DNA from: Tridacna crocea
Taxonomy: Eukaryota; Mollusca; Bivalvia; Cardiida; Cardiidae
DNA length: 64,000 nt
Direction: 5' to 3'
Assembly (NCBI GenBank): GCA_943736015.1
Contig: OX031057.1
Coordinates: forward strand, 56,373,001-56,437,000
Of this stretch, positions 2,690 through 52,430 are shown piece after piece. The notes below the pieces were generated by a model. The model saw only the letters and a list, made by a program, of their open reading frames with translations, was not told the origin of the DNA and did no database searches. The first letter of the stretch is position 1, and every line of letters begins with the position of its first letter. Made by a program: the position numbers and the translations under genes.

Positions 2690-3075
2690 CCCTGTTCTAA
2701 CATGACTCGCGAATTCGGCTCTATAAACACAGTGCAAGGAAAGCGTGGTAAAATCTCCGACAATCTATGTAGATTGACGTCACTCTGTATCGAGTGACGT
2801 CATTCAATGAGTGAGTTGAAATGGAATATAATCTTCATCCGCATTTTATTCTAAGTTTGAAATTGTTTTCCTTCCATTAAAAATTTGCCATGTTAGAATC
2901 GAAATAATCTTCTTTCTATCGCGGTTTATCGTTCGATAAACCACGCTGTGAGTTATGAGGGGCAATGAATAAACCACTCGGGCTATCACCCTCATGAATT
3001 ATTTTTTTAACCTCATAACTCACAACTGTGGTTTATTGAACGATAAACCACAATAGAAGAAGATTATTTCTTAAG
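2690..3075. repeat. unit 1 of a tandemly duplicated foldback repeat
   Basis: The stretch contains CGGCTCTATA, a GTGACGTCATT box and ends in an inverted repeat: 2915-2960 pairs with 3009-3057 (GGTTTATCGTTCGATAAACC type) around a loop of about 50 bases. A second copy of the whole unit follows at 3095-3985. A reverse fragment lies at about 56890-56990. Confidence 0.75.
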
Positions 3076-3374
3076 TTTATAATTTATTATTAGATCTATG
3101 ACAAGTGAATCCGGCTCTATACACACAGTACTTTTCAGGATCTTCAAGTATGTTAAAATCTGCGACATTCAATATCGAGTGGCGTCATTTTTTACAATGT
3201 AAGTGAGTGAACTTAATCTCCATCCGCGTCTTTACTCCAAGTATGAGCTTGTTTTCCTTTCATTAATAACTGGTCATGTTAGAATCGAAATAATCTTCTT
3301 TCAATCGTGGTTTATCGTTCAGTAAGCCACGTTGTGAGTTATGAGGCTAAATGAATAAACCACCCGGGCTATCG

Positions 3375-3582
3375 TCTTACGAACGAAGTCCGTAACAAAG
3401 AAACAAATGAATAAATGCATGGCAGAAATAAGGATCGGAGCGGGATTCGAACTCCGAACTCCCGGACGCAAAGCCAATACCCTAACCACTGAGCCAAAGA
3501 GATATCTCCCTGACGCAGTAGCCAGGTATTGTATTTAAATCGGGAGTATATGCCATGCAGGAAGGAGTGGTCTCCCGTAACA
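3375..3582 (-). repeat. TRIM 3' LTR with tRNA-like core
   Basis: Minus-strand LTR beginning TGTTACGGGAGACC and ending CGTTCGTAAGA. It has a TATA-like ATTTAAATAC, then an A box (TGGCTCAGTGG, 3496-3486) and a B box (GTTCGAATCC, 3452-3443). The spacing matches a tRNA D-arm to T-arm distance. Confidence 0.9.
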
Positions 3583-3593
3583 CACCCCCTCTT
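3583..3593 (-). other. TRIM polypurine tract
   Basis: AAGAGGGGGTG on the minus strand, immediately before the TG that opens the 3' LTR. Confidence 0.8.
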
Positions 3594-3680
3594 AAAGTCA
3601 TCATTTATTGATGACTCAAAGCCTTATTAGGCAGGAAGTCCGATTTTGGACAACAAATGGGATTAATGGCTCAATGGCCA

Positions 3681-3698
3681 ATCCCGGACGAGCCCCCA
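3681..3698 (-). other. TRIM primer-binding site, tRNA-Pro
   Basis: TGGGGGCTCGTCCGGGAT on the minus strand, complementary to the 3' end of tRNA-Pro, directly abutting the 5' LTR. Confidence 0.9.
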
Positions 3699-3906
3699 TC
3701 TTACGAACGAAGTCCGTAACAAAGAAACAAATGAATAAATGCATGGCAGAAATAAGGATCGGAGCGGGATTCGAACTCCAAACTCCCGGACGCAAAGCCA
3801 ATACCCTAACCACTGAGCCAAAGAGATATCTCCCTGACGCAGTAGCCAGGTATTGTATTTAAATCGGGAGTATATGCCATGCAGGAAGGAGTGGTCTCCC
3901 GTAACA
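3699..3906 (-). repeat. TRIM 5' LTR with tRNA-like core
   Basis: Same 208 bp as 3375-3582 with a single difference near 3780 (a for g). B box at 3776-3767, A box at 3820-3810 on the minus strand. Confidence 0.9.
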
Positions 3907-4189
3907 ATCGGCAACCGTGGTAACGATTGGTTTATTGAACGATAAACCACGATAGATCTAGAAAGAATATTATTTCTTAAGTAGCTCTAGGTAGTGGTAG
4001 ATGTGGATTGAGAATTGGAGCTTATGTCGGGGCAAACCCTGAAAAAATGTGAAAACCACTTAGTGCATTAGAATTCTTGGTAACCTAAGGACTGCCTTAT
4101 TCTGAACTGAAAACGACATTTTAAGAAGAATAAATGAACAAAAGAACATTTTTGGTCGGAACCATGTGAAATCATACACGAACTCCAGT

Positions 4190-25139: not shown

Positions 25140-25720
25140 TGATAGGGTAGAAAACATAGTGGGTAAAGGAGAAAGTGCTGGTTACCAGCATTTTCTCCTT
25201 TTCCCACAATGTTTTCTGAAGGCTCCTTTCCTAAATCAGCATTGTGTGGTAATGGGTTAAAATCATAATTGTTTGGTAAAGGGCTAACCAAACTAAGCCC
25301 TGTTTCCTCAAACCTAAAGAAATATATGTTCCCTGTCAAAGATAGTCGTTGGAGCCAAATTCACTTTGTTGTTTGCAAATGCTTTCAGTCCAAGTCTGAC
25401 TAGGAAGTTCAGTGGTTAGGGTATCGGACTGGTGATCCGGAAGTCGTGGGTTCCTTACCATGTTGAGGTAATCCTTCTGTCAAGTTTTTACCTCTCACGA
25501 ATCTGATGCATGCGGGAAAAGCAGTCACTGGCTTGGAAACAAAGTTGTGTCAATACTGGCATGAGAGAACCAGGAAACACTTGCATGCATAGATACACTG
25601 ACTGCAGTGATATGACCTAAGCTGTTTAAACGTTGTGAAACACTTATACTTGTAAATAAACAAACAGTTTGAACAAGTCTAAAGTTTTGTCATCTGGTAA
25701 AGAGAAAATGATTACATGTG
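25140..25720. mobile_element. family A copies, one split by a SINE
   Basis: A hairpin with intact arms lies at 25145-25212. Next to it a right half stops at GCAAATGCTTTCAGTC near 25391 and resumes at GTTTGAACAAGTCTAAAG near 25668. The SINE at 25392-25665 sits between these two pieces. Confidence 0.7.
25392..25668 (+). mobile_element. tRNA-derived SINE inserted in a family A copy
   Basis: AAGTTCAGTGGTTAGGGTA (A box), tRNA-like CGGACTGGTGATCCGGAAG (anticodon stem region) and GTCGTGGGTTCC (partial B box). The body has TGATGCATGCGGGAAAAGC, AAGTTGTGTC, GAGAACCAGGAAACAC and TATGACCTAAGCTG. Confidence 0.85.
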
Positions 25721-34899: not shown

Positions 34900-35330
34900 T
34901 GTTATGGGAGACCACTCCTTCATGCATGGCGTTGTCCCTATTTAAATACAGTACCTAACAACTGCTTTAGGGAGGTATCTCTCTAGCTCAGTGGTTAAGG
35001 TATTGGTCATTTAACTCATTACCAAACGACAATATTTTAGGCTTGTCCAAATCGAAAGCATTTGCAGACGACAAAATAAAAGTGACTGAAAATTTTAAAT
35101 TTGTTTCGTGAAGGGTAGAAAACATTGTGGGTAAAGGAGAAAATGCTGGTTACCAGCATTTTCTCCTTTTCCAACTATGTTTTCTAAAGGCTTCTTTCTC
35201 AGGGGCGTCAAAAGTAGGGATTGAGTGGTAATGGGTTAAACCTCAAAAAACAAGGATCTTGTCTGCCAGGGGTTTAAATCCCCTGTACTGTGGGGATGAC
35301 AGGATTATGCCTGCCTACCGCATGACTTAC
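34900..35330 (+). mobile_element. older relative of the TRIM LTR, split by a family A MITE
   Basis: TGTTATGGGAGACCACTCC at 34900 matches the TRIM LTR start, as do TATTTAAATACAGTACCT and GGGAGGTATCTCT. The A box AGCTCAGTGGTTAAGG is followed by the MITE (35011-35239) and then by a B-box-like AGGGGTTTAAATCCCC near 35270. The 3' third does not match the TRIM. No second LTR is nearby, so it may be a solo LTR or a chimera. Confidence 0.7.
35011..35239 (-). mobile_element. family A MITE inside the tRNA-like core of an LTR
   Basis: TTAA at 35011-35014 and 35236-35239; intact hairpin at 35117-35180. Inserted between the A and B boxes. Confidence 0.9.
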
Positions 35331-39142: not shown

Positions 39143-40262
39143 GTTGTGCATGTGCAATTTTGATGACCCTGCTGCGATTTGTTACAGAATTATGAGACCG
39201 CGCTTGTACTTTTTTCAACTCTTACTTTTGTACTAAATCATACTACACTCTGTGACAAAGACCTTTTTTGTGACAAGGAGCTGATGTAAAGGTAAAATCA
39301 TGTTTAATGATAGCTTTAGTTTGAAAAGTGTATGCAACTACGTTTTTGCGTACATGCAGCTATGCCCCTGGAAGAAATCAGGTATCGGGTCTTGTCTAGA
39401 GTGTGATACCTGCATATACAAAGTTTTTAGTGTAACTGTTTAAATTACGAAAACAGTGAGGTGTTGTCTTGCCATTATCATCGTCATCTTCTTCATGCAG
39501 AAACTTGGATTATTTCTCATATCTGTTTTATTATACTCCCCACAAACGAAGTTTGGGGGGGGGGCATACTGGAGTCGCCCTGTCCGTCCGTCAAGAAATC
39601 TTGTCCGGAGCATAACTTCCAAAGTATAATAGCCAGTGACTTCAAACTTCACACACAGGTAAATCACATTGAGGAGAAGTGCAGTGTATAAGAACCATAA
39701 CTCTATTCCAGCTGTTTTTTGAGTTATTGCCCATTGTAGATTTTAACTTTGGATTTTTGTCCGGAGTATAACTTCAAAACCAAGGAAGCTAGTAACTTCA
39801 AACTTCACACACAGATAGATCACATGAGGAGAAGTGCAGTGTACAAAAACCATTACTCTATTCCAACTATTGAGTTATTGTCCTTTGTAAATTTTAACTT
39901 TCCAAAGTAAAGAAACTAGTAACTTCAAATTTCACACCTTGCTAGATCACATTTCGGACAAGTGCAGTATACAAGAACCATCAGTCTATTCCAACTATCT
40001 TTTTAGTTATTGCCCTTTGTCAGTTTTAACTTTGGATTTTTGTCTGGAGCATAACTTCCATAGTAAGAAAGCTAGTGACTTCAAACTTCATATACAGCTA
40101 GGTCACATTGAGGAGAAGAATTGTAACTATATACAAACAATTTTTCAAGTTATTGCCCTTTGTAAATTTTCACTTTGGACTTTAGTCCGGGGCATAACTT
40201 CCAAAGTAAAACAGCTAGTAACTTCAAACTATACACACAACAAGATCACTTAAGTTAAGACC
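38930..40262 (+). repeat. GTATACxCCC repeats with diverged tandem units
   Basis: A first block begins TATACCCCTCACAACG at 38930 and holds (AT)n and (GT)n runs at 39081-39140. A second begins ATACTCCCCACAAACG near 39533 with TGTCCGTCCGTC. Units of about 160 bases follow (GCATAACTTCCAAAGTA, AACTTCAAACTTCACAC, GATCACATTGAGGAGAAG, TTATTGCCCTTTGTAAAT). The array resumes at 40560 and 47209. Confidence 0.75.
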
Positions 40263-40264
40263 TG

Positions 40265-40565
40265 TGTAATGTACCGTCCGGTGAAAATTCTTTTTGGTTG
40301 ATAAATAAGGATAAGACTAAGGATTTATGCAGAAAAAATATCTTGAAATTATTTTTTATACTTCTGTTAGTTTTCTGAAAAGGGAGGTAATTATTACCTC
40401 TTTTTGAATTGAGAATATAATGGCTTTAGATTTATAAATGATAATTCAAAGAAGGACAAAATGCAAAAATAATGAATCAGTGAAAGTAGTTCAATAGTAA
40501 TCATTTTTTGCAGGATGATATTTTAGTGGAAATAGCAGTTTTCCATTACACAGGTCTTACCTTAA
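40265..40565. repeat. dispersed repeat D, third copy
   Basis: CTGAAAAGGGAGGTAAT and TTATAAATGATAATTC match 7480 and 23640. It interrupts the tandem array. Confidence 0.65.
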
Positions 40566-40712
40566 AGGAGAAGTATAAGAACCATAACTATATTCCAACC
40601 TTTTTGGGGATTATTGCCCTTTGTAAATTTTAACTTTAGATTTTTTTCTGGAGCATAACTTGAAAAGTAAAGAAGCTAGGAACTTCAAAGTTCACACACA
40701 GCTAGATCACAT

Positions 40713-41277
40713 TGTTACGAGCTAGGCGTAACTAGAAAGTAGAAGCCAGCAACAAACGATAACAATTAACAGAATTTATTAACAAAAATATCAAATAATC
40801 AGTGACAATGTTACAATAGTACAAAACAATACCTTAGATGTTAAATACAGAAGACAAATTATTCCAGTCTTAATTCCAGTCTGATCCTGATCCAAACTGA
40901 ATGTAATCCAAGCACACGAAATAATCCCCACTTTAGTCTAGTCTGATCCTAATCCAAACTGAATGTAATCCAAACACTAATTATATGACACAAACACAAA
41001 ATAATCCCCACTGTACATAGTCTGGCAATCATGTATTAACTAGTGAACACCGAGATGTAAAAAGCTTTTCCTTTTATAATAACAGGGAAACTTCCAGAAA
41101 ATTCATGTAAAAATTAGTTGCATAATTTCTAGTAATCAGATTGTAAAAAGGCCAGGAAACTTCTAGAACAATATTCCACAAGAGAGAATCCAGTTCTAAA
41201 AATAGCAACAGGGGAAAACCATTCAAAATAAATACACACATGAACAAAGCTAAGAATAACTGGGCATGTACATAACA
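40713..41277 (-). repeat. 3' LTR of the Gmr1-like element
   Basis: Reads TGTTATGTACATGCCC to CTCGTAACA on the minus strand; 565 bp. Confidence 0.9.
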
Positions 41278-41288
41278 CTTCCCCCCTT
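41278..41288 (-). other. polypurine tract
   Basis: AAGGGGGGAAG on the minus strand, one base from the TG of the 3' LTR. Confidence 0.8.
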
Positions 41289-41536
41289 GAAAAGAAAAAG
41301 AAAGGTTTATGAAATAAATCTTTCTTTTTTGCAATATTATTTATATACATGTATATAACACTTTTCTTTTTTGTAATATTATTTATATACATGTATATAA
41401 CACTTTAACTGAAGTATTACAGAGGAAGTCACAAACTCAAATATTTATTTTAGACTAATGAAAATAGTCAAGGTAATGAAAGTACAATTTGAAAATCCAG
41501 TTTGAACATGATTTAGATAAAATGACTATTTGAATT

Positions 41537-44500
41537 TCAAACTCTTGAAAGAGCATCTGGTATGATGTTATCTTTCCCTTTTATGTGTCTTATATCAAGA
41601 TTAAACTCTTGAAGCAATAAACTCCACCTCAGTAATCTTTGATTCTTATTCTTAAGTTTGTGTAGAAAACTTAAAGGGTTATGATCACTGAATACAACAA
41701 TTGGTGACGTTGAAGAGGTTAAATAAACTTCGAACTGCTGGATTGCCAGAATTAAAGCAAGACACTCTTTTTCTATGGTAGAGTAATTTTTCTGATGCTC
41801 GTTAAATTTCTTAGAAAAGTAACAAACTGGGTGATTAATACCATTATCATCTTCTTGTAAAAGAACAGCACCGATACCAACATCACCTGCATCAACAGCT
41901 AATTTGAAATATTTGTCAAAATCAGGTGCCAAGAGAACTGGTGTGCTCTTTAGTATGGCTTTTAGACGATCAAATGCATCTTGACATTTGTCATTCCATT
42001 TGAACTTTGTGCTTTTCTTAAGTAAATTTGTTAAAGATTCAGCAATACCTGAGAAATTTTTACAGAATTTCCTATAGTAGCCAGCCATACCAAGAAATCG
42101 CATCAGCTGTCTTTTATATTTAGGCACAGGAAACTCAGAGATAGCACTGACCTTAGCTTCTAAAGGTTTAACTTGACCCTGTCCCACAAGATGTCCTAGA
42201 AATGTTACAGTAGCATGACAAAATTCAGTTTTTGCAAGATTCACAGTCAGTTTCGCTTCACTGAGTCGGTCGAAGAACTTCCTGATTCTTTGAAGGTGGT
42301 CACTCCAACTGTCTGAATAGATGATCACGTCGTCAATATATGCATCACAGCCATCTAATCCACATATAACGTTGTTTACAAGTCGCTGAAACGTTGCAGG
42401 AGAATTTTTCATCCCAAACGGCATAACTTTGTACTGGTACAGACCGTTTGGAGTAGCAAAGGCTGATACTTCTTTTGCTTTATCAGTCAGTGGAACTTGC
42501 CAGAATCCTTTTAGCAGGTCAAATTTGGTGACATATTTAGAATTTTCAACTTTGTCAATACAGTCATCAATTCTTGGTATTGGAAAAGAGTCTATTTTTG
42601 TCACAGAGTTCACTTTACGATAGTCAGTACACATTCTATAAGTTCCATTCGATTTGGGTACTAATATACATAGTGAACTGTAATTACTCTGGCTAGGTTC
42701 AATAAAGTCATTTTCCAGTAAGTGTTTTATTTCATCTTGGAGGTATTTCTGTTTCAAAGGATTCATTCTATATGGATGTTGCTTTATTTGTTTAGAATCT
42801 TCCACAATGACATCATGATAGATTTTATCAGTTCTTGTGGGGATATCAGGAAATAAATGTTCATATTCATGTATCAACTGTTTCAGCTCTTCCTGTTGTG
42901 ATGGTTCTAAGTGAGAAAGGAGGTATTTCTGTTTCAAAGGATTCATTCTATATGGATGTTGCTTTATTTGTTTAGAATCTTCCACAATGACATCATGATA
43001 GATTTTATCAGTTCTTGTGGGGATATCAGGAAATAAATGTTCATATTCATGTATCAACTGTTTCAGCTCTTCCTGTTGTGATAGTTCTAAGTGAGAAAGT
43101 TTGTTGTCAAAGTTTCTCAAAATATCAGAATTCTCAAGTTTAGATGGACCAGGATCAGATTTATCAATAAAGTCAGAATTTACTTCTAGTTCAAATACAT
43201 TTGATTCTTGTGGGACAGTGTTTACAACTGTAATTGGTTTTGAAATATAGCCATCTCTGTTAAAGTATTCCTTTAACATATTTACATGACACATTTGTTT
43301 GTTTTTACGCCTTCCTGGAGTATTAATTATATAGTTTAAATCACTTGTTTTCTTGTCAATAGTGTAGGGTCCAAAATATCTTGCCTGTAGAGGTCTGCAA
43401 GGTATTGGCAAAAGAGCAAGGACTTTGTCACCTGGTTTAACTTTTCTATCAATAACATGGTTGTCATATCTTGCTTTCATTTTGCCCTGAGACGCTTTAA
43501 GATTAGACCTAGCAACCTCACATGCCCTAGACAGTTTATTTCTGAAGTCAGAAACATACTGTAGTAAATTCAAAGGTGTTTCATCATTTGAGAGAAATTT
43601 CTCTTTCAAAAGTTTCAAAGGTCCACGAACAGAATGGCCAAAAACTAATTCAAAAGGACTGAAACCAAGAGATTCTTGTACAGATTCTCTGACTGCAAAT
43701 AGTAACAAATGGATGCCCTCATCCCAATCTTTTTCAGTGTCAAAGCAATATGACCTTATCATATTTTTTAATGTCTGGTGAAATCTTTCTAAAGCACCTT
43801 GACTTTCAGGGTGATAGGCAGATGACCTGTATTGCTTGATCCCTAATTCATGCATAACCTGTTGGAATATACCAGACATAAAATTTGACCCTTGATCAGA
43901 CTGAACTGATTTTGGAAGACCAACAAATGTGAAAAAATTTATAAGAGCTTTGACTATTGACTTTGTTTTGATGTTCCTTAAAGGAATAGCTTCAGGAAAA
44001 CGTGTAGAAGTACACATGATTGTTAAGAGATACTCATTTCCTGACTTGGTTCGAGGTAAAGGACCAACACAATCTATAAGTATCCTACTGAAAGGTTCAT
44101 CAAAAGCAGGAATAGGTTGTAATTGAGCTTTGGGAATGGTTTGGTTGGGTTTACCTACCATTTGACATGTATGGCAAGTTTTACAATATTTAGAGACATC
44201 TTATTTGAGACCAGGCCAATAAAAATGATTAATAATTTTATGATAGGTCTTGTTTATACCTAGATGACCTGACATAGGACTTTCATGAGCTATACTTAGT
44301 ATTTCATGAAGATATGACTTTGGAACCACAATTTGGTGGGAAACAGCCCATTCATCATCCGCTGGGACATCAAATGGTCGCCATTTTCTCATAAGAATTC
44401 CATTCTTTATATAGTAACACATTGGGACCTGTGAAATTTCATCTTCAGGTAAAGCCCTAAAAATTAATTTTGAAATCTCAGGATCAGTTTGCTGTTCCTG

Positions 44501-45268
44501 GATGGGCTGTGACTTTGACAGCGTGTCGTGACCTTGGTCAATAGACCGTGGTAGTGAATGACAAGACATTGACGAGTCTGTCTGAGTATCAGACAAACTG
44601 GGATCAAGAGACTTTTTAATCTCATTATTAAAATATTGACCGATAAAAGTATCCGTCAAGTCAATGTCAGAGTTTGAGTTTTTCAAAATGGCCTTTTTAG
44701 CCATAGCTCGGGTAACTGCAAAAGAAGGATACAAGTCAAGAATTTCCTGCTCGATAGGGTCATCTGTTTGACCTATATTTGGTGTGTCAGTTACAAGTGG
44801 ATTAACCACAACCTTATCTCCAGCTAAGTCATTGCCTATTAGTAAATGGACACCTTTAAATGGTAAGGAAGGTTTAATACCAATAACCACAAGCCCAGTA
44901 ACCAAATCTGATGACAAATTAACGTAATGGAGAGGGATATTAACAGTTCCACACTCTACACCCTGAATGAGGACACTAGTACCGGAAGAAGTCTTCTCAG
45001 AAAAAGGCAGTATATCTGCTAAAATAAGAGATTGAGAAGCTCCTGTGTCTCTTAAAATTTTAATAGGGGTAGGTGGGCAATTATCACCTGAAAGTGATAC
45101 AAAACCATTCAACATAAATGGTTCAAAAATCTCTATAGTAGAATCAGACTTGGGTTTTGTGACTATGTCAATTGTATTGGTTTTAATAGAAGACTGTGGC
45201 CTTGGCCTAAGAGTGGTGAGCCCTGTTAGTTTGGCTTCATCACTTTCTAACTTCCTTTTTATTTTCAA
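41537..45268 (-). pseudogene. pol: Gmr1-like pol: protease, integrase, RT, RNase H; one in-frame stop
   Basis: One frame of about 1,240 codons is broken by TAA at 44203-44201. Upstream of the stop are the aspartic protease motif DTGAS and the first part of the integrase zinc finger (HESPMSGHLGINKTYH). Beyond it come the finger cysteines (CKTCHTC), the integrase core with D, D and E all present (LIDCVGP, QSDQGSNF, HPESQGALERF), and the GPY module (RYFGPYTI). Reverse transcriptase follows with FDLLKGFWQV and YIDD (42340-42329), and then RNase H with LAVDAGDVG, EKECLAL and FSDHNPL. Nothing follows RNase H, confirming the IN-before-RT order. A perfect 60-codon repeat lies between IN and RT. Catalytic residues are intact, so decay is recent. 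Confidence 0.9.
42739..43098 (-). repeat. in-frame 180 bp tandem duplication within pol
   Basis: 42739-42918 and 42919-43098 are the same except at 42903/43083. The unit is exactly 60 codons (SQQEELKQLIHEYEHLFPD...) and sits in the linker just before the RT fingers. Confidence 0.95.
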
Positions 45269-46397
45269 ACATTCAGAAACAAGGTGACCAGGTTTCTTAC
45301 AATAGTTACAAGTGGGTCGAGATAAGGGATATTGACTTTTGGTTTCACTATTAGAATTGGGTTTGGGTGTATTGGATTGAGTGGCATGCCAGATGAATTA
45401 CCAGACATAGATTTATTTTGGGGATGTGAGGAAGTAGGTTTTGGTTTAGCAATAAAAGAAACTTTATGTGTAAGGTAGTAATTATCAGCCAGACGAGCTG
45501 CTTCTTCTAAAGTTTCAACTTGTTTGTCGTCTAAGAATGTCTTAACATCAGATTGAATACAACGTTTGAATTCTTCAACTAACATAAGTTGTCTTAGTTT
45601 ATCATAATTTTGGTCTATTTTCTTAGAACAGCACCATCTATCAAATAACTGTTCCTTGTTTCTGGCAAATTCAACATGAGTCTAGTTAGAATCTTTTTTA
45701 CAATTTCTAAATTTTTGTCTATATGCTTCTGGGACCAGCTCATAACCTTTGAGAATAAGTTCTTTAACAGTCTCATAATGATGACTTTGTTCAACACCTA
45801 GTTGTGTATAAATTTCACGAGCTTTGCCCATCAAAACACTTTGCAGAAGTAAAGTCTAGTGCTCTTTTGGCTAATTTAAATTTTCTGCAACTTTTTCAAA
45901 GTGTAGGAAGTATTTATCAACTTCTTTTTCTTGAAATGGAGGAACAAGCCTAATATGTTTTGTAACATCGAAATTGTATTCAATCTTTTGCTTCGGCTGA
46001 TTTGCTCTTTCTTGCATTTCTATTTCCCTCATTCTTAATTGAAATTCTCTCTCCTTCTCTCTCTCTTCCCTTTCTCTTTCCTTCTCTCTCTCTCTTCCCA
46101 TTCTCTTTCTTTCTCTCTTTCCTGAATTTCTAATTGTCTGATCTGCAATTTTAATTCAAGTTCTTTCGAACTTGAAACTGATTGAACGTCAACTATCACG
46201 GAAAGAGCATTTTCATTAAAAATCTCCTCATCAACAAAATATTGTACCAAAATATTCTTAATGTCATGTTTACGCATTGAAGATTTTATTTCAGACAATT
46301 TATAGTGTTTAGCAAGATTAAGCAAATCAGTCTTTTTACCTAAATTCAATAACTCCACAGACGGTTCAGCCGTAAATTTATCCAAGTCAAAGGACAT
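45265..46397 (-). pseudogene. gag: Gmr1-like gag with SCAN-like capsid region, several breaks
   Basis: Starts at ATG 46397. An N-terminal stretch of about 60 residues is followed by a highly charged E/R/K coiled coil encoded by a CT/GA-rich tract (46035-46125). Then comes FDVTKHIRLVPPF and a capsid region with EAYRQKFRN and HVEFARNKEQLFDRWC, which resembles the SCAN domain, known to derive from Gmr1-like gag. The C-terminal zinc knuckle is CNYCKKPGHLVSEC (45305-45264). Stops fall near 45873, 45857 and 45682, with frame changes near 46100 and before the knuckle. Confidence 0.82.
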
Positions 46398-46625
46398 GTT
46401 TGTTTGTTGCTGGATTCAAGTACAAAATTGTACTATAATTACTGATTAGTAAAAATGTAGGCAAAAAAACATTTCAATAAGTGAAAACTAGACTGTCTGT
46501 AAGAAATTTTGACTAACAGGATGTATTAGATTTTATTAAAATTGTGAATAGCAAACGCCTATGTCTTATTTTCCAATCGATGGTTAATCCCAAAAGGAAA
46601 ACGAATGCGTTAGTCTTATTTTCCT

Positions 46626-46643
46626 ATTCCGGACGAGCCCCCA
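46626..46643 (-). other. primer-binding site, tRNA-Pro type
   Basis: TGGGGGCTCGTCCGGAAT on the minus strand, one mismatch from the exact tRNA-Pro primer site seen in the TRIM at 3681-3698. Confidence 0.88.
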
Positions 46644-46648
46644 ATTTC

Positions 46649-47208
46649 TTTTACGAGCTAGGCGTAACTAGAAAGTAGAAGCCAGCAACAAACGATAACA
46701 ATTAACAGAATTTATTAATAAAAATATCAAATAATCAGTGACAATTTTGCAATCGTACAAAACAATACCTTAGATGTTAAATACAGAAGACAAATTATTC
46801 CAGTCTTAATTCCAGTCTGATCCTGATCCAAACTGAATGTAATCCAAGCACACGAAATAATCCCCACTTTAGTCTAGTCTGATCCTAATCCAAACTGAAT
46901 GTAATCCAAACACCAATTATATGACACAAACACAAAATAATCCCACTGTAGTCTGGCAATCATGTATTAACTAGTGAACACCGAGATGTAAAAAGCTTTT
47001 CCTTTTATAATAACAGGGAAACTTCCAGAAAATTCATGTAAAAATTAGTTGCATAATTTCTAGTAATCAGATTGTAAAAAGGCCAGGAAACTTCTAGAAC
47101 AATATTCCACAAGAGAGAATCCAGTTCTAAAAATAGCAACAGGGGAAAACTATTCAAAATAAATACACACATGAACAAAGCTAAGAATAACTGGGCATGT
47201 ACATAACA
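46649..47208 (-). repeat. 5' LTR of the Gmr1-like element
   Basis: 560 bp, about 1% different from 40713-41277, with a five-base indel at the CCCACTG(TACA)TAGTCTGG site. Its inner end has lost the CA (reads AA). Confidence 0.9.
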
Positions 47209-47212
47209 ACAT

Positions 47213-47700
47213 TAAGGGGAAGTGTATTGTTTAAGAACCATATCTCTAATCCAACAATTTTTTGAGTTATTGCCCTTTGCAAATTTCAACTTTGGATCTT
47301 ATCTGGGCATAACTTGCAAAGTACCAAAACTAGTAACTTCAAACTTTATGTAGAATAAGATCATCATAAAGCAAAGTGCACTTTAGAAGAACTATAACTT
47401 TATTCCTACTATTTTAAGAGATATTTCCCTTTGTAGAATATAATTTTTCAATTTTTGTCAGGGGCATAACTTCCACAGCATAAAAGCTAGTGACCTCAAA
47501 CTTCATAATACAGATAGACCACATTAAGGTGAAATGCAGAGTACAAGATCCATAAACTTGTATATTCCCCCTAGTTATTTTTTTCAATTTCATTTTTTTT
47601 TTTTTTTTTGTACTAAGCCATTCTGCATTCTGTTTCAAGGAGCATTTTTGTGACAAGGAGCTGGTGGGGGTATGATCACGTTTAGTGATAGATCTAGTAT
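47213..47700 (+). repeat. continuation of the GTATACxCCC tandem array
   Basis: Resumes with CATTAAGGGGAAGTG directly after the retroelement, with further GCATAACTTGCAAAGTA and AACTTCAAACTTTATG units. Confidence 0.7.
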
Positions 47701-49735: not shown

Positions 49736-51950
49736 AAAAAGATTTAAACAGGTTCACTACATACCTAATTACAAAGCTATATACTTTCCAATTTTATAAA
49801 AGAAGAACTTAAAAGTTTTCTTTTTTTGTTCCTTTGTTCGAACTTGTGATCTCCGGAGCGGGGCCAGTTTTGACCCCCAGCGAACAAGCTTGGTAGAGGT
49901 CCACTAGGAGATGCTACATACCAAATATAAAAGCTCAACACCTTCCAGTTTTAGAACCTCCTTTGTCTGTATGTTTGATTTTGTGACCCCTGGGCTGGGG
50001 CCAGTTTTGATCCCAGAGGTATCATATGAACAAAACTGGTAGTGATCCTTTAGGAGATGCTAAATGCCAAGCTCTACGCCTTCAAATTTCAGAGAAAAGG
50101 AATTTTAAAGTTTTCCTTTTTTATTCCTATGTTCGAACTTGTGACCCTGAGGCGTGGCCAGCTTTGACCCAGGGATCAAATGAACAAAATTGGCAGAGGT
50201 CCACTAAGAGATGCTACGTACCAAAAATCACAGCTTTACGCCTTCTAGTTTCAGAAAATATTTTCAAAGATTTTGCTATTTTCAGCTCACCTGAGCCCGA
50301 AGTGCTCATGGTGAGTTTTTGTGATCGCCCAATGTCCGTCGTCCGTCGACCGTCGTCCGTCGTCCACAATTTCTTTAAACATCTTCTCCTCCCAAACCAC
50401 TGGGCCACTCTTGATGAAACTTGGCAGGGATGTTCCTTGGGTAAGGTTCTACCAAATTTGTTCGAGAGATTGAATTCCAGCCATAACTCTGGTTGCCAGT
50501 GCAACCACAAGGAAAAAAAATAGCAAAATCTTTGAAAATCTTCTTCTATGAAACTAGCAGGCGTAGAGCTTTGATATTTGGTATGTAGCATCTCTTAGTA
50601 GCCCTCTACCAAGATTGTTCATATGATGGCCCAGTGCTTTGATATTTGGTATGTAGCATCTCCTAGTGGACCTCTACCAAGAGTGTTCGTATGATGCCCT
50701 TGGGGTCAAAACTGGCCCCGCCCTGGGGTCACAAGTTTGAAACATGGGAATAAAGAAGGAAAACTTTAAAAATCTTCTTCTCTGAAACAAGAAGGAGTAG
50801 CGCTTTGATATTTGGTATGAAGCATCTACTAGTTGACCTCTACCAAGTTTATTCACGTGATGTCCCTGGGTTCCAAACTGGCCCAGCCTCAGGGGTCACA
50901 AGTTCGAAACATAGGAACAAAGAAGGAAAACTTTAAAATTCTTCTCTGAAACTAGGAGAGGCAGAGCTTTGATATTTGGTATGTAGCATTTTCTAGTGGA
51001 CATCCACCAAGATTGTTCGTATGATCCCCATAGGTACAAAACTGGCCCCGCCCCGAGGGTCACAAGTTTGAAACATAGGATCAAAGAAGGAAAACTTTAA
51101 AATTCTTCTTCTATGAAACTAGAAAGGGCAGAGCTTTGATATTTATTATGTAGCATCTCCTAGTGGACCTCTATCAAGATTGTTCATATGATGCCCTTGT
51201 GGTCAAAACTGGCCCCTCCCCGGGGGTCACAAGTTTGGAACATATGAACAAAGAAGGAAAACTTTAAAAATCTTCTTCTCTGAAACTAGAAGGTGCAGAG
51301 CTTTGATATTTGGTAATGTAGTATCTCCTAGTAGACGTCTACGCAGATTATTCATATGATGCCCTTGGGAAAAATACTGATCCCGCCCCGGGGGTCACAA
51401 GTTTGAAACATATGAACAAAGAAGGAAAACTTTAAAATTCTTCTTCTATGAAACTAGAAGAGGCAGAGCTTTGATATTTAGTATGTAGCATCTCCTAGTG
51501 GACCTCTAGCAAGACTGTACATATGATGCCCCTGGGGTCCAAACTGGCCCAGCCTCGGGGGTCACAAGTTTGAAACATAGGAACAAAGAATGAAAAACTT
51601 TTAAAATCTTCTTCTCTGAAACAAGAAGGAGTAGCGCTTTGATATTTGGTATGAAGCATCTGCTAGTTGACCTCTACCAAGTTTGTTCACATGATGTCCC
51701 TGGGGTCCAAACTGGCCAAGCCTCGGGGGTCACAAGTTGGAAACACAGGAACAAAGAAGGAAAACTTTAAAAATATTTTTGTCTGAAACTGGAAATCGTA
51801 GACCTTTGATATTTCATTATGTAGCATCCTTCAGTGGGCCTCTACCAAATACGATACGATGATCTTTTCGGAAAAGAAGAATTTTCATTGTAGACCTTTA
51901 CTGCTTAGTACTCAGGTGAGCGATATAGGACCATCATGGTCCTCTTGTTT
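49736..51950. repeat. head-to-head tandem array of about 175 bp units bounded by GCTCAGGTGxGC
   Basis: Units carry GTAGCATCTCCTAGTGGACC, CTACCAAGATTGTTC, GGCCCCGCCC, GGTCACAAGTTTGAAACAT, AAAACTTTAAAAATCTTC and GCTTTGATATTTGG. From about 49800 to 50270 they are inverted; from 50535 to 51870 there are about eight in the forward direction. Between the two lies a block with AGCTCACCTGAGC and repeated GTCCGTCG (50280-50530). TGCTCAGGTGGGCTAAAAA at 49732 and CTCAGGTGAGCGATATAGG at 51912 bracket the whole. Confidence 0.75.
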
Positions 51951-52167: not shown

Positions 52168-52430
52168 AAATTGTCCGCCCGGGTGGCTCAGTGGTGAGCG
52201 TGTTGGACTCATGACCTGGTGTTTGTGAGTTCGATACCCGATTGAGGCGAACTTTTTTTTCGGCGTATTTTCGCCTCTCACCTCTGATGAAGCATGTGAG
52301 TAAAGTACTCGGTGGCTTTGGATAGAAAGTTGTGTTAGTTCCGGTGTGAGAAAGCCAGGAAACATGTGTGCGTCACCAACCGCCATGGTATGACCTTAGC
52401 TGTTAAAGTGCCCACCAACCAACCTATGCA
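52168..52430 (+). mobile_element. tRNA-derived SINE
   Basis: GGTGGCTCAGTGGTGAGC (A box), TTGGACTCATGACCTGGTG (anticodon region) and GTGAGTTCGATACCC (B box). The body has GAAAGTTGTGTTAG and GTGAGAAAGCCAGGAAAC, and the end TATGACCTTAGCTGTTAAA. Confidence 0.88.

Follow-up and report, generated by a model that had tools for sequence, protein, structure and literature searches.

A Helenus-kind TRIM of Tridacna crocea with palindromic copies that resemble integrated strong-stop DNA and with junctions to a Gmr1-like Gypsy family

Introduction

The 64-kb stretch of Tridacna crocea DNA analysed here (the window) contains a short element with two nearly identical repeats, each carrying motifs spaced like the A and B boxes of a tRNA. 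The initial annotation described it as a TRIM whose LTRs hold a tRNA-like promoter core, in parallel to Cassandra of plants. The locus thus raises the question whether we see one retroelement or two neighbouring tRNA-derived units, and, if it is a retroelement, where its RNA would begin, which polymerase would make it and which enzymes would copy it. The structural part of the earlier description stood up to analysis, whereas its novelty did not, because elements of this kind have been published as Helenus (Kojima 2024). New are palindromes that resemble integrated strong-stop DNA, junctions between TRIM and Gypsy sequences, and an inverted repeat around the putative RNA start.

Results

Anatomy of the element

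The TRIM and its target site duplications (TSDs) were read directly from the sequence; positions are those of the window.

3375-3906, minus strand: TRIM, whole element, 532 bp
3371-3374, no strand: TSD ATCG, left
3907-3910, no strand: TSD ATCG, right
3699-3906, minus strand: 5' LTR, 208 bp, TGTTACG...CGTAAGA
3375-3582, minus strand: 3' LTR, 208 bp, one mismatch to the 5' LTR
3583-3698, minus strand: internal region, 116 bp, non-coding
3681-3698, minus strand: primer binding site (PBS) TGGGGGCTCGTCCGGGAT, adjoining the 5' LTR
3583-3593, minus strand: polypurine tract (PPT) AAGAGGGGGTG, adjoining the 3' LTR
3596-3616, minus strand: perfect 8-bp hairpin AGTCATCA-ATAAA-TGATGACT directly ahead of the PPT, with AATAAA across the loop
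3856-3863, minus strand: TATA-like box TTTAAATA (LTR 44-51)
3810-3820, minus strand: A box TGGCTCAGTGG in the 5' LTR (LTR 87-97)
3767-3776, minus strand: B box GTTCGAATCC in the 5' LTR (LTR 131-140)
3486-3496, minus strand: A box in the 3' LTR
3443-3452, minus strand: B box in the 3' LTR

The details given in the initial annotation were thereby confirmed: the LTR pair with its single difference (T in the 5' LTR and C in the 3' LTR, at position 127), the primer site and polypurine tract abutting the LTRs, the ATCG duplication and the two boxes in each LTR. The claimed tRNA-Pro primer site can pair at 18 of 18 positions with the 3' end of host tRNA-Pro, CCA included. A tRNA-Pro pattern located the corresponding genes at four places; the letters were compared for three of these, and all agree. 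Lack of evident coding capacity also held, since the only overlapping stop-to-stop frame of at least 90 amino acids (107 aa) extends beyond the element. With two short LTRs, a PBS, a PPT, no evident coding capacity and a length under about 1 kb, the element is a TRIM. Folding of the internal region as a whole gave a z of -2.0.

A strict regular expression running from A to B box matched only the two TRIM LTRs on both strands of the window. A tRNA in the LTR core was recognised by neither ARAGORN nor Rfam, so the promoter boxes were kept while the cloverleaf was not, and the core is not a functional tRNA gene.

Two further repeats were seen in the window. Beside the TRIM insertion lies a MITE-like inverted repeat (3013-3060 and 3300-3350), and a tandem array with a period of 167 bp, 7.3 copies and 83% matches occupies 50632-51848.

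The family in the host genome

We searched the host genome (1.05 Gb, 31 contigs), in which the window is C2:56373001-56437000, for further copies. A 540-bp query returned 1307 candidates at first look, 40 of which were scored and are 99-100% identical, in a best-match set that favours young copies by design. The 27-base A-box core has 2683 exact genomic copies (reversed control, 0), and the exact LTR/PBS junction has 1262. For a closer view we took the first 100 A-box core sites among the matches listed, all on contig C1, which group into 65 clusters with one (32), two (32) or four (1) cores. Twenty of the 32 single-core clusters and 20 of the 33 others were fetched for inspection. The fetched singles comprise eight solo LTRs with their own TSDs, 11 loci where additional whole LTRs had escaped the exact search word, and one palindromic copy (L030). 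Arrays with three or four LTRs occur at L038, L053 and L060. All three forms that the initial annotation had proposed to count, with two LTRs, one or many, are therefore present.

Exact 4-bp TSDs flank 57 of 61 parsed copies. Two of the four exceptions, L030 and L019, also have exact TSDs once their true ends are used, leaving L018 (ACTA/CTAC) and L050 (one mismatch). In 28 two-LTR copies from C1 the LTRs diverge by a median of 1.0% and at most 5.8%, and in eight copies they are identical. The TRIM family is young and high-copy. LTR/PBS ends that lack the following T were found at 174 places, of which 20 were fetched: 18 are TRIM copies that either differ by a base change or have additional copies close by, L076 is degraded, and L081 is a junction with Gypsy sequence. 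A search with one pattern for relatives in viral contig and genome contig collections gave 0 and 0. The molluscan hemocyanin domain was found neither in the host genome nor in the control genomes, so that its absence is uninformative about the host.

At L019 (G000:C9:47365905-47366837), 13 bases of the PBS and then another U5 end lie between the 3' LTR and the TSD ATTT. It is apparently another by-product of reverse transcription.

A chance pair of tRNA-derived SINEs could mimic a TRIM, and SINE-like units of tRNA origin do lie elsewhere in the window, at 52184-52240 and 25409-25427, with partial similarity to the tRNA-like region of the TRIM. This explanation, which the initial annotation had itself proposed as its refutation should most copies prove to be single units, would have to account for 1262 exact LTR/PBS junctions and for sampled copies that share the order LTR, PBS, internal region, PPT, LTR inside one outer TSD. 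Moreover, 33 of the 65 sampled clusters have at least two exact cores, 11 of the 20 fetched single-core clusters hold further whole LTRs, and the eight true single units are solo LTRs, each with a TSD. We consider a chance pair of SINEs to have a negligible probability; independent units without PBS or shared TSD are ruled out by the cluster forms and the shared outer TSDs.

Palindromic copies

L030, the only palindrome among the 40 loci fetched from the C1 sample, begins with an inverted LTR piece (from the U5 end to LTR 80), continues with the same piece in sense and then with PBS, internal region and LTR. The TSD TTTT flanks this entire compound insert. The centre of the palindrome is a motif of the native LTR, GAGAT|ATCTC, which ends 2 bp ahead of the A box.

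3823-3832, minus strand: palindrome GAGATATCTC (LTR 75-84), midpoint shared by the snapback copies in the genome, with the putative RNA start at its 5' edge

The 26-base palindrome centred on it occurs at 39 genomic sites, all of which were analysed. Seven sites are bare U5-R::R-U5 palindromes, 258 or 259 bp long, whose arms differ at 1 to 5 positions and whose 4-bp TSDs are exact (L121, L129, L130, L131, L138, L140, L152). Nine continue into PBS, internal region and LTR, again each with exact 4-bp TSDs (L030, L122, L139, L143, L144, L146, L147, L150, L154); in L147 the left arm is longer (155 vs 129). Three pass through the PBS into Gypsy sequence (L081, L127, L132). The other 20 are degraded or compound or lack a resolved TSD, and L136 was left out of the TSD-bearing set by hand, since its right end is not U5 despite a script-tagged TSD. 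In the palindromic copy L128 (G000:C4:2619462-2620403), the PBS jumps to an inverted LTR at a shared GGGATTCGAA, which looks like a micro-homology template switch.

A looser search, allowing 2-32 bases between inverted A-box ends, found 65 sites (reversed control, 6). Among the 50 head-to-head sites listed, the gap is 10 bases in 42, 8 in four, 6 in one and 14 in one; two with a gap of 29 look unrelated. Both this search and that for the 26-base palindrome required nearly perfect centres, so that products with a different start would have escaped them. No snapback beginning near LTR 52 was seen, as 197 of 197 LTR-52 segments (from 157 loci, some overlapping) keep their normal TATA-like flank.

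The 16 palindromes with TSDs might best be understood as integrated, self-primed minus-strand strong-stop DNA. Their centre would then mark the place where reverse transcription ran off the 5' end of the RNA.

An inverted repeat around the palindrome centre

The LTR itself contains an inverted repeat around the same point.

3799-3855, minus strand: imperfect inverted repeat LTR 52-79 / 80-108, with the same centre as GAGATATCTC

Here 21 of 29 aligned columns are identical, and none of 5000 shuffles was as good. Among five older relatives, four show 22 identical columns of 29-31 and one (L117) shows 17 of 29. The native LTR is hence a long imperfect palindrome around the snapback centre. An Rfam match to MIR1031 reflects this repeat at LTR 79/80 and was discarded, being below threshold at 18.7 bits (cutoff 100).

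The inverted repeat may explain the snapback site or represent the relic of an earlier snapback; alternatively, it may favour a route at the DNA level. On the last reading the palindromes are DNA-level inverted duplications that arose at a natural inverted repeat and are silent on the RNA start. GAGATATCTC is indeed the strongest perfect palindrome of the LTR, and because an imperfect repeat extends for about 28 bp on either side of its midpoint, such a route would have more substrate than the 5-bp core suggests. Nevertheless, 16 of the 39 sites speak against inverted duplication, since on the outside they terminate in U5 and are flanked by exact 4-bp TSDs. The inverted arm of the perfect palindromes copies the A-box side, that is R-U5, and not native LTR 52-79, and L081 carries a PBS with 18 tRNA-type bases ahead of its switch to Gypsy. 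Two other palindrome centres of the LTR gave 0 and 0 copies in a genome-wide search with the same type of pattern, although with arms of 4 and 3 bp they are weaker centres and weak controls. We therefore regard an origin by DNA-level duplication as improbable. Finding the inverted repeat nonetheless made it slightly more credible than before and lowered our probability for the joint reading discussed below from 0.72 to 0.68.

A Gypsy element with a related primer site

The window also holds a candidate for the source of the missing enzymes.

40713-47208, minus strand: Gmr1-like Gypsy element, TSD ATGT, LTR TGTTATG...CGTAACA
46623-46643, minus strand: its tRNA-Pro-type PBS, 21 bp, 90% identical to the TRIM PBS

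The LTR ends read TGTTATG...CGTAACA in Gypsy vs TGTTACG...CGTAAGA in the TRIM, and the Gypsy PPT is G-rich. Pfam places an rve piece (43202-44200) before an RVT_1/RNaseH piece (41540-42760) on the minus strand. Integrase before reverse transcriptase is what we take to be the Gmr1-like order, and the family name given to this element rests on it. The gag piece has a SCAN match in Pfam just over the cutoff. Its coding region includes a 181-bp tandem duplication (42739-42919/42919-43099, 99.4%). Repeats of about 70-85% identity flank the insertion at 39601-40714 and 47209-47555, and the element seems to have landed in a repeat array.

The three palindromes with Gypsy sequence connect this family to the TRIM. 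In L081 the palindrome leads into a PBS with 18 tRNA-type bases, then into a Gypsy-like leader (83%) and gag (91%). In L127 the palindrome is flanked by a TRIM at one end and by PBS and Gypsy leader at the other, and L132 runs from the PBS through a Gypsy LTR piece to a gag start whose letters are the same as those of the gag start in the L081 alignment. The chimera pattern with Gypsy leader has one exact genomic place, L081 itself (also cut out as L119); the L127 and L132 junctions were found among palindromes only. L120, in which we looked for the far 3' end of this chimera, gave no Gypsy LTR, Gypsy RT or TRIM match. Such junctions would most simply arise when both RNAs are copied in one particle. 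The Gmr1-like Gypsy family is the likely helper; as the window Gypsy is 83-91% identical to the chimeric part of L081, the exact helper may belong to a related family.

Older relatives of the LTR

A second, older LTR lies elsewhere in the window.

34900-35006, plus strand: LTR of the same superfamily, interrupted downstream of the A box by a 230-bp repeat of high abundance

We had considered it a family that shares just the first 109 bp, and rejected this, since the 230-bp repeat interrupts the LTR in the window. That repeat, with an inner palindrome GGAGAAAATGCTGGT/ACCAGCATTTTCTCC, has dozens of matches in the 64 kb, many of them partial (e.g., 35011-35240 and 1187-1417).

At 29 other loci, many of them older whole LTRs, the downstream half differs. 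Of these loci, 24 retain TTTAAATA, 20 have a strict A box and 17 have a B box with at most two changes; as the query contained TTTAAATA and the A box, only the B-box figure is unbiased. A tRNA-Lys-like loop, CTTTTAA, is found in 14 of the 29, a motif that ordinary tRNA-Lys genes contain as well. Given this loop, capture of the promoter core from a SINE or a tRNA is plausible.

Start and polymerase of the RNA

If the palindromes are self-primed strong-stop DNA, the 5' end of the RNA would lie at or near LTR 75, about 12 nt ahead of the A box and some 5 bp upstream of the position equivalent to base 1 of a tRNA. RNA polymerase III on tRNA-type promoters is expected to start at this distance upstream of the A box. 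The TATA-like TTTAAATA, however, is situated about 31 bp upstream of the putative start, and polymerase II is hence predicted to start at the same place. The start position alone thus does not discriminate between the two polymerases.

The sense strand of the TRIM contains no TTTT. Among 2000 dinucleotide shuffles of one LTR together with the internal region, 1% were equally free of TTTT (mean 4.9); for the whole element this was true of 0 of 2000, a figure that counts the LTR twice. TTTT is absent from 21 of 21 window-like copies, the window's own included, and from 28 of 31 parsed C1 copies, all of which are kin rather than independent tests. An internal terminator would be unnecessary for the element, because read-through RNA would still carry R. 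The putative start and the missing TTTT are compatible with polymerase III, and say no more than this. With no tRNA recognised by ARAGORN or Rfam, it is the boxes that support polymerase III, by which the TRIM is likely transcribed.

Alternatively, polymerase II could transcribe the TRIM from the TATA-like box, the tRNA-like core being a passenger kept by descent. Such a role would fit the distance of TTTAAATA from the start and its presence in 24 of the 29 divergent relatives, as well as the TTTT between the boxes in 14 of these 29. It would leave unexplained why A and B boxes persist in relatives with differing loops between them and why the young family lacks TTTT in sense. In addition, AATAAA in the internal region, ahead of the 3' LTR, could shorten a polymerase II transcript, and an upstream TATA box serves polymerase III, too, in some organisms. 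We hence view transcription by polymerase II as unlikely, though as an alternative to be taken seriously.

Discussion

Proposed mechanism

Taken together, we favour the reading of the element as a Helenus-kind TRIM with a likely polymerase III RNA, copied with Gypsy help and giving rise to self-primed strong-stop palindromes, and we put its probability at roughly 0.7. The tRNA-derived core of each LTR, with TATA-like box, start site, A box and B box, would yield an RNA, most likely made by polymerase III, whose 5' end lies about 12 nt ahead of the A box and which extends through the element. Enzymes of the Gmr1-like Gypsy, which would likewise be primed by tRNA-Pro, could package and copy this RNA. 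Minus-strand strong-stop DNA would end at the 5' end of the RNA and normally transfer to R of the 3' LTR. Sometimes, however, its palindromic 3' end GAGATATCTC might fold back and prime itself, copying R-U5 and then 18 bases of the tRNA primer. The outer end of such a hairpin would be the U5 terminus, which integrase could recognise.

Two routes may lead on from the hairpin. Direct integration would give the 258-259-bp U5-R::R-U5 palindrome of the seven bare forms. For the extended forms, the new PBS end could anneal to the complementary PBS sequence that terminates a minus strand and prime synthesis there. The template would be minus-strand DNA from another TRIM in the nine forms that continue into TRIM sequence, or else from the Gypsy helper. 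The more specific claim, that a polymerase III TRIM carries a palindrome exactly at its RNA 5' end and that a Gmr1-like helper integrates the resulting self-primed, LTR-less palindromes of 258-259 bp, we hold with even odds. The inverted repeat at LTR 52-108 might itself be the fossil of an older event of this type.

If this mechanism holds, the palindromes constitute a new class of retroelement insertion, with A and B boxes facing outward in both directions, and record RNA start and helper in the genome. A single genome seems to provide a natural record of an RNA 5' end and of particles shared with one helper lineage, and the polymerase III hypothesis hence becomes testable by one 5'-end mapping experiment. 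Integration of self-primed strong-stop DNA would furthermore mean that a product of reverse transcription regarded as a dead end can give rise to palindromes in the genome.

Comparison with known systems

Cassandra of plants, a TRIM with a 5S rRNA-derived promoter in its LTRs according to the passages of PMC10886601 that treat it, resembles the window TRIM in carrying a polymerase III-type promoter inside the LTRs. Its promoter source differs, as Rfam gave no 5S rRNA match in the window TRIM at E up to 5. The biv-TRIM of bivalves has similar repeats of 202-218 bp and likewise solo and tandem forms, but is described in parts of PMC6934838 as having a 77-80-bp internal domain, a PPT that is mostly GGGGAGA, no unambiguous PBS and no helper found. 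PbTRIM of the harvester ant is also an animal TRIM with 4-bp TSD, PBS and PPT; in the passages of PMC3532108 considered here, it has a tRNA-Leu PBS and a TATA-type promoter, and a tRNA-like core is not mentioned.

By its sequence the window TRIM belongs to the published Helenus kind. Helenus comprises TRIMs whose LTRs include a tRNA-like region and which, in animals, have 4-bp TSDs; the PBS of animal families corresponds to a tRNA 3' end, with tRNA-Pro listed for bivalves, and Gypsy is the suggested helper (Kojima 2024; relevant passages of PMC10886601). In the window TRIM we find tRNA-like A (TRGCY...YGG) and B boxes in both LTRs, a 4-bp TSD (57 of 61 exact across the family), a PBS for a tRNA 3' end (18 of 18) and, as far as sequence can tell, a Gypsy helper candidate with the same PBS type and three junctions. 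Boxes in the LTRs, tRNA PBS, PPT and TSD length are thus shared with the descriptions in PMC10886601, and the length lies within the 311-1263 bp given there. Box B differs, reading AGTTC (AGTTCGAATCC) here vs the conserved GGTTC in that account of Helenus; in the relatives L092, L110, L111 and L113 it is GGTTCGAATCC. The same source, in the passages at hand, proposes Helenus, polymerase use included, on sequence alone and deduces contact with the helper from shared primer sites, and these passages do not mention the palindromic strong-stop inserts and TRIM-Gypsy junctions described here. For the literature since 2023, our search for Helenus found Kojima 2024 alone. Six sequence words of the TRIM, compared with published text, gave one match, in an unrelated paper.

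A search by title and abstract, a scope that proves little, found no report of integrated self-primed strong-stop DNA, and passages of PMC5445492, the one paper with all relevant terms, deal with other matters. The closest analogy is minus strong-stop DNA of HIV, which undergoes TAR-dependent self-priming according to passages of PMC4668388, a paper that cites Guo 1997. There, strong-stop cDNA folds back and primes itself, as it would in the TRIM. For HIV, the product is described there as an aberrant by-product; in contrast, the self-primed product of the TRIM has apparently been integrated, with TSDs.
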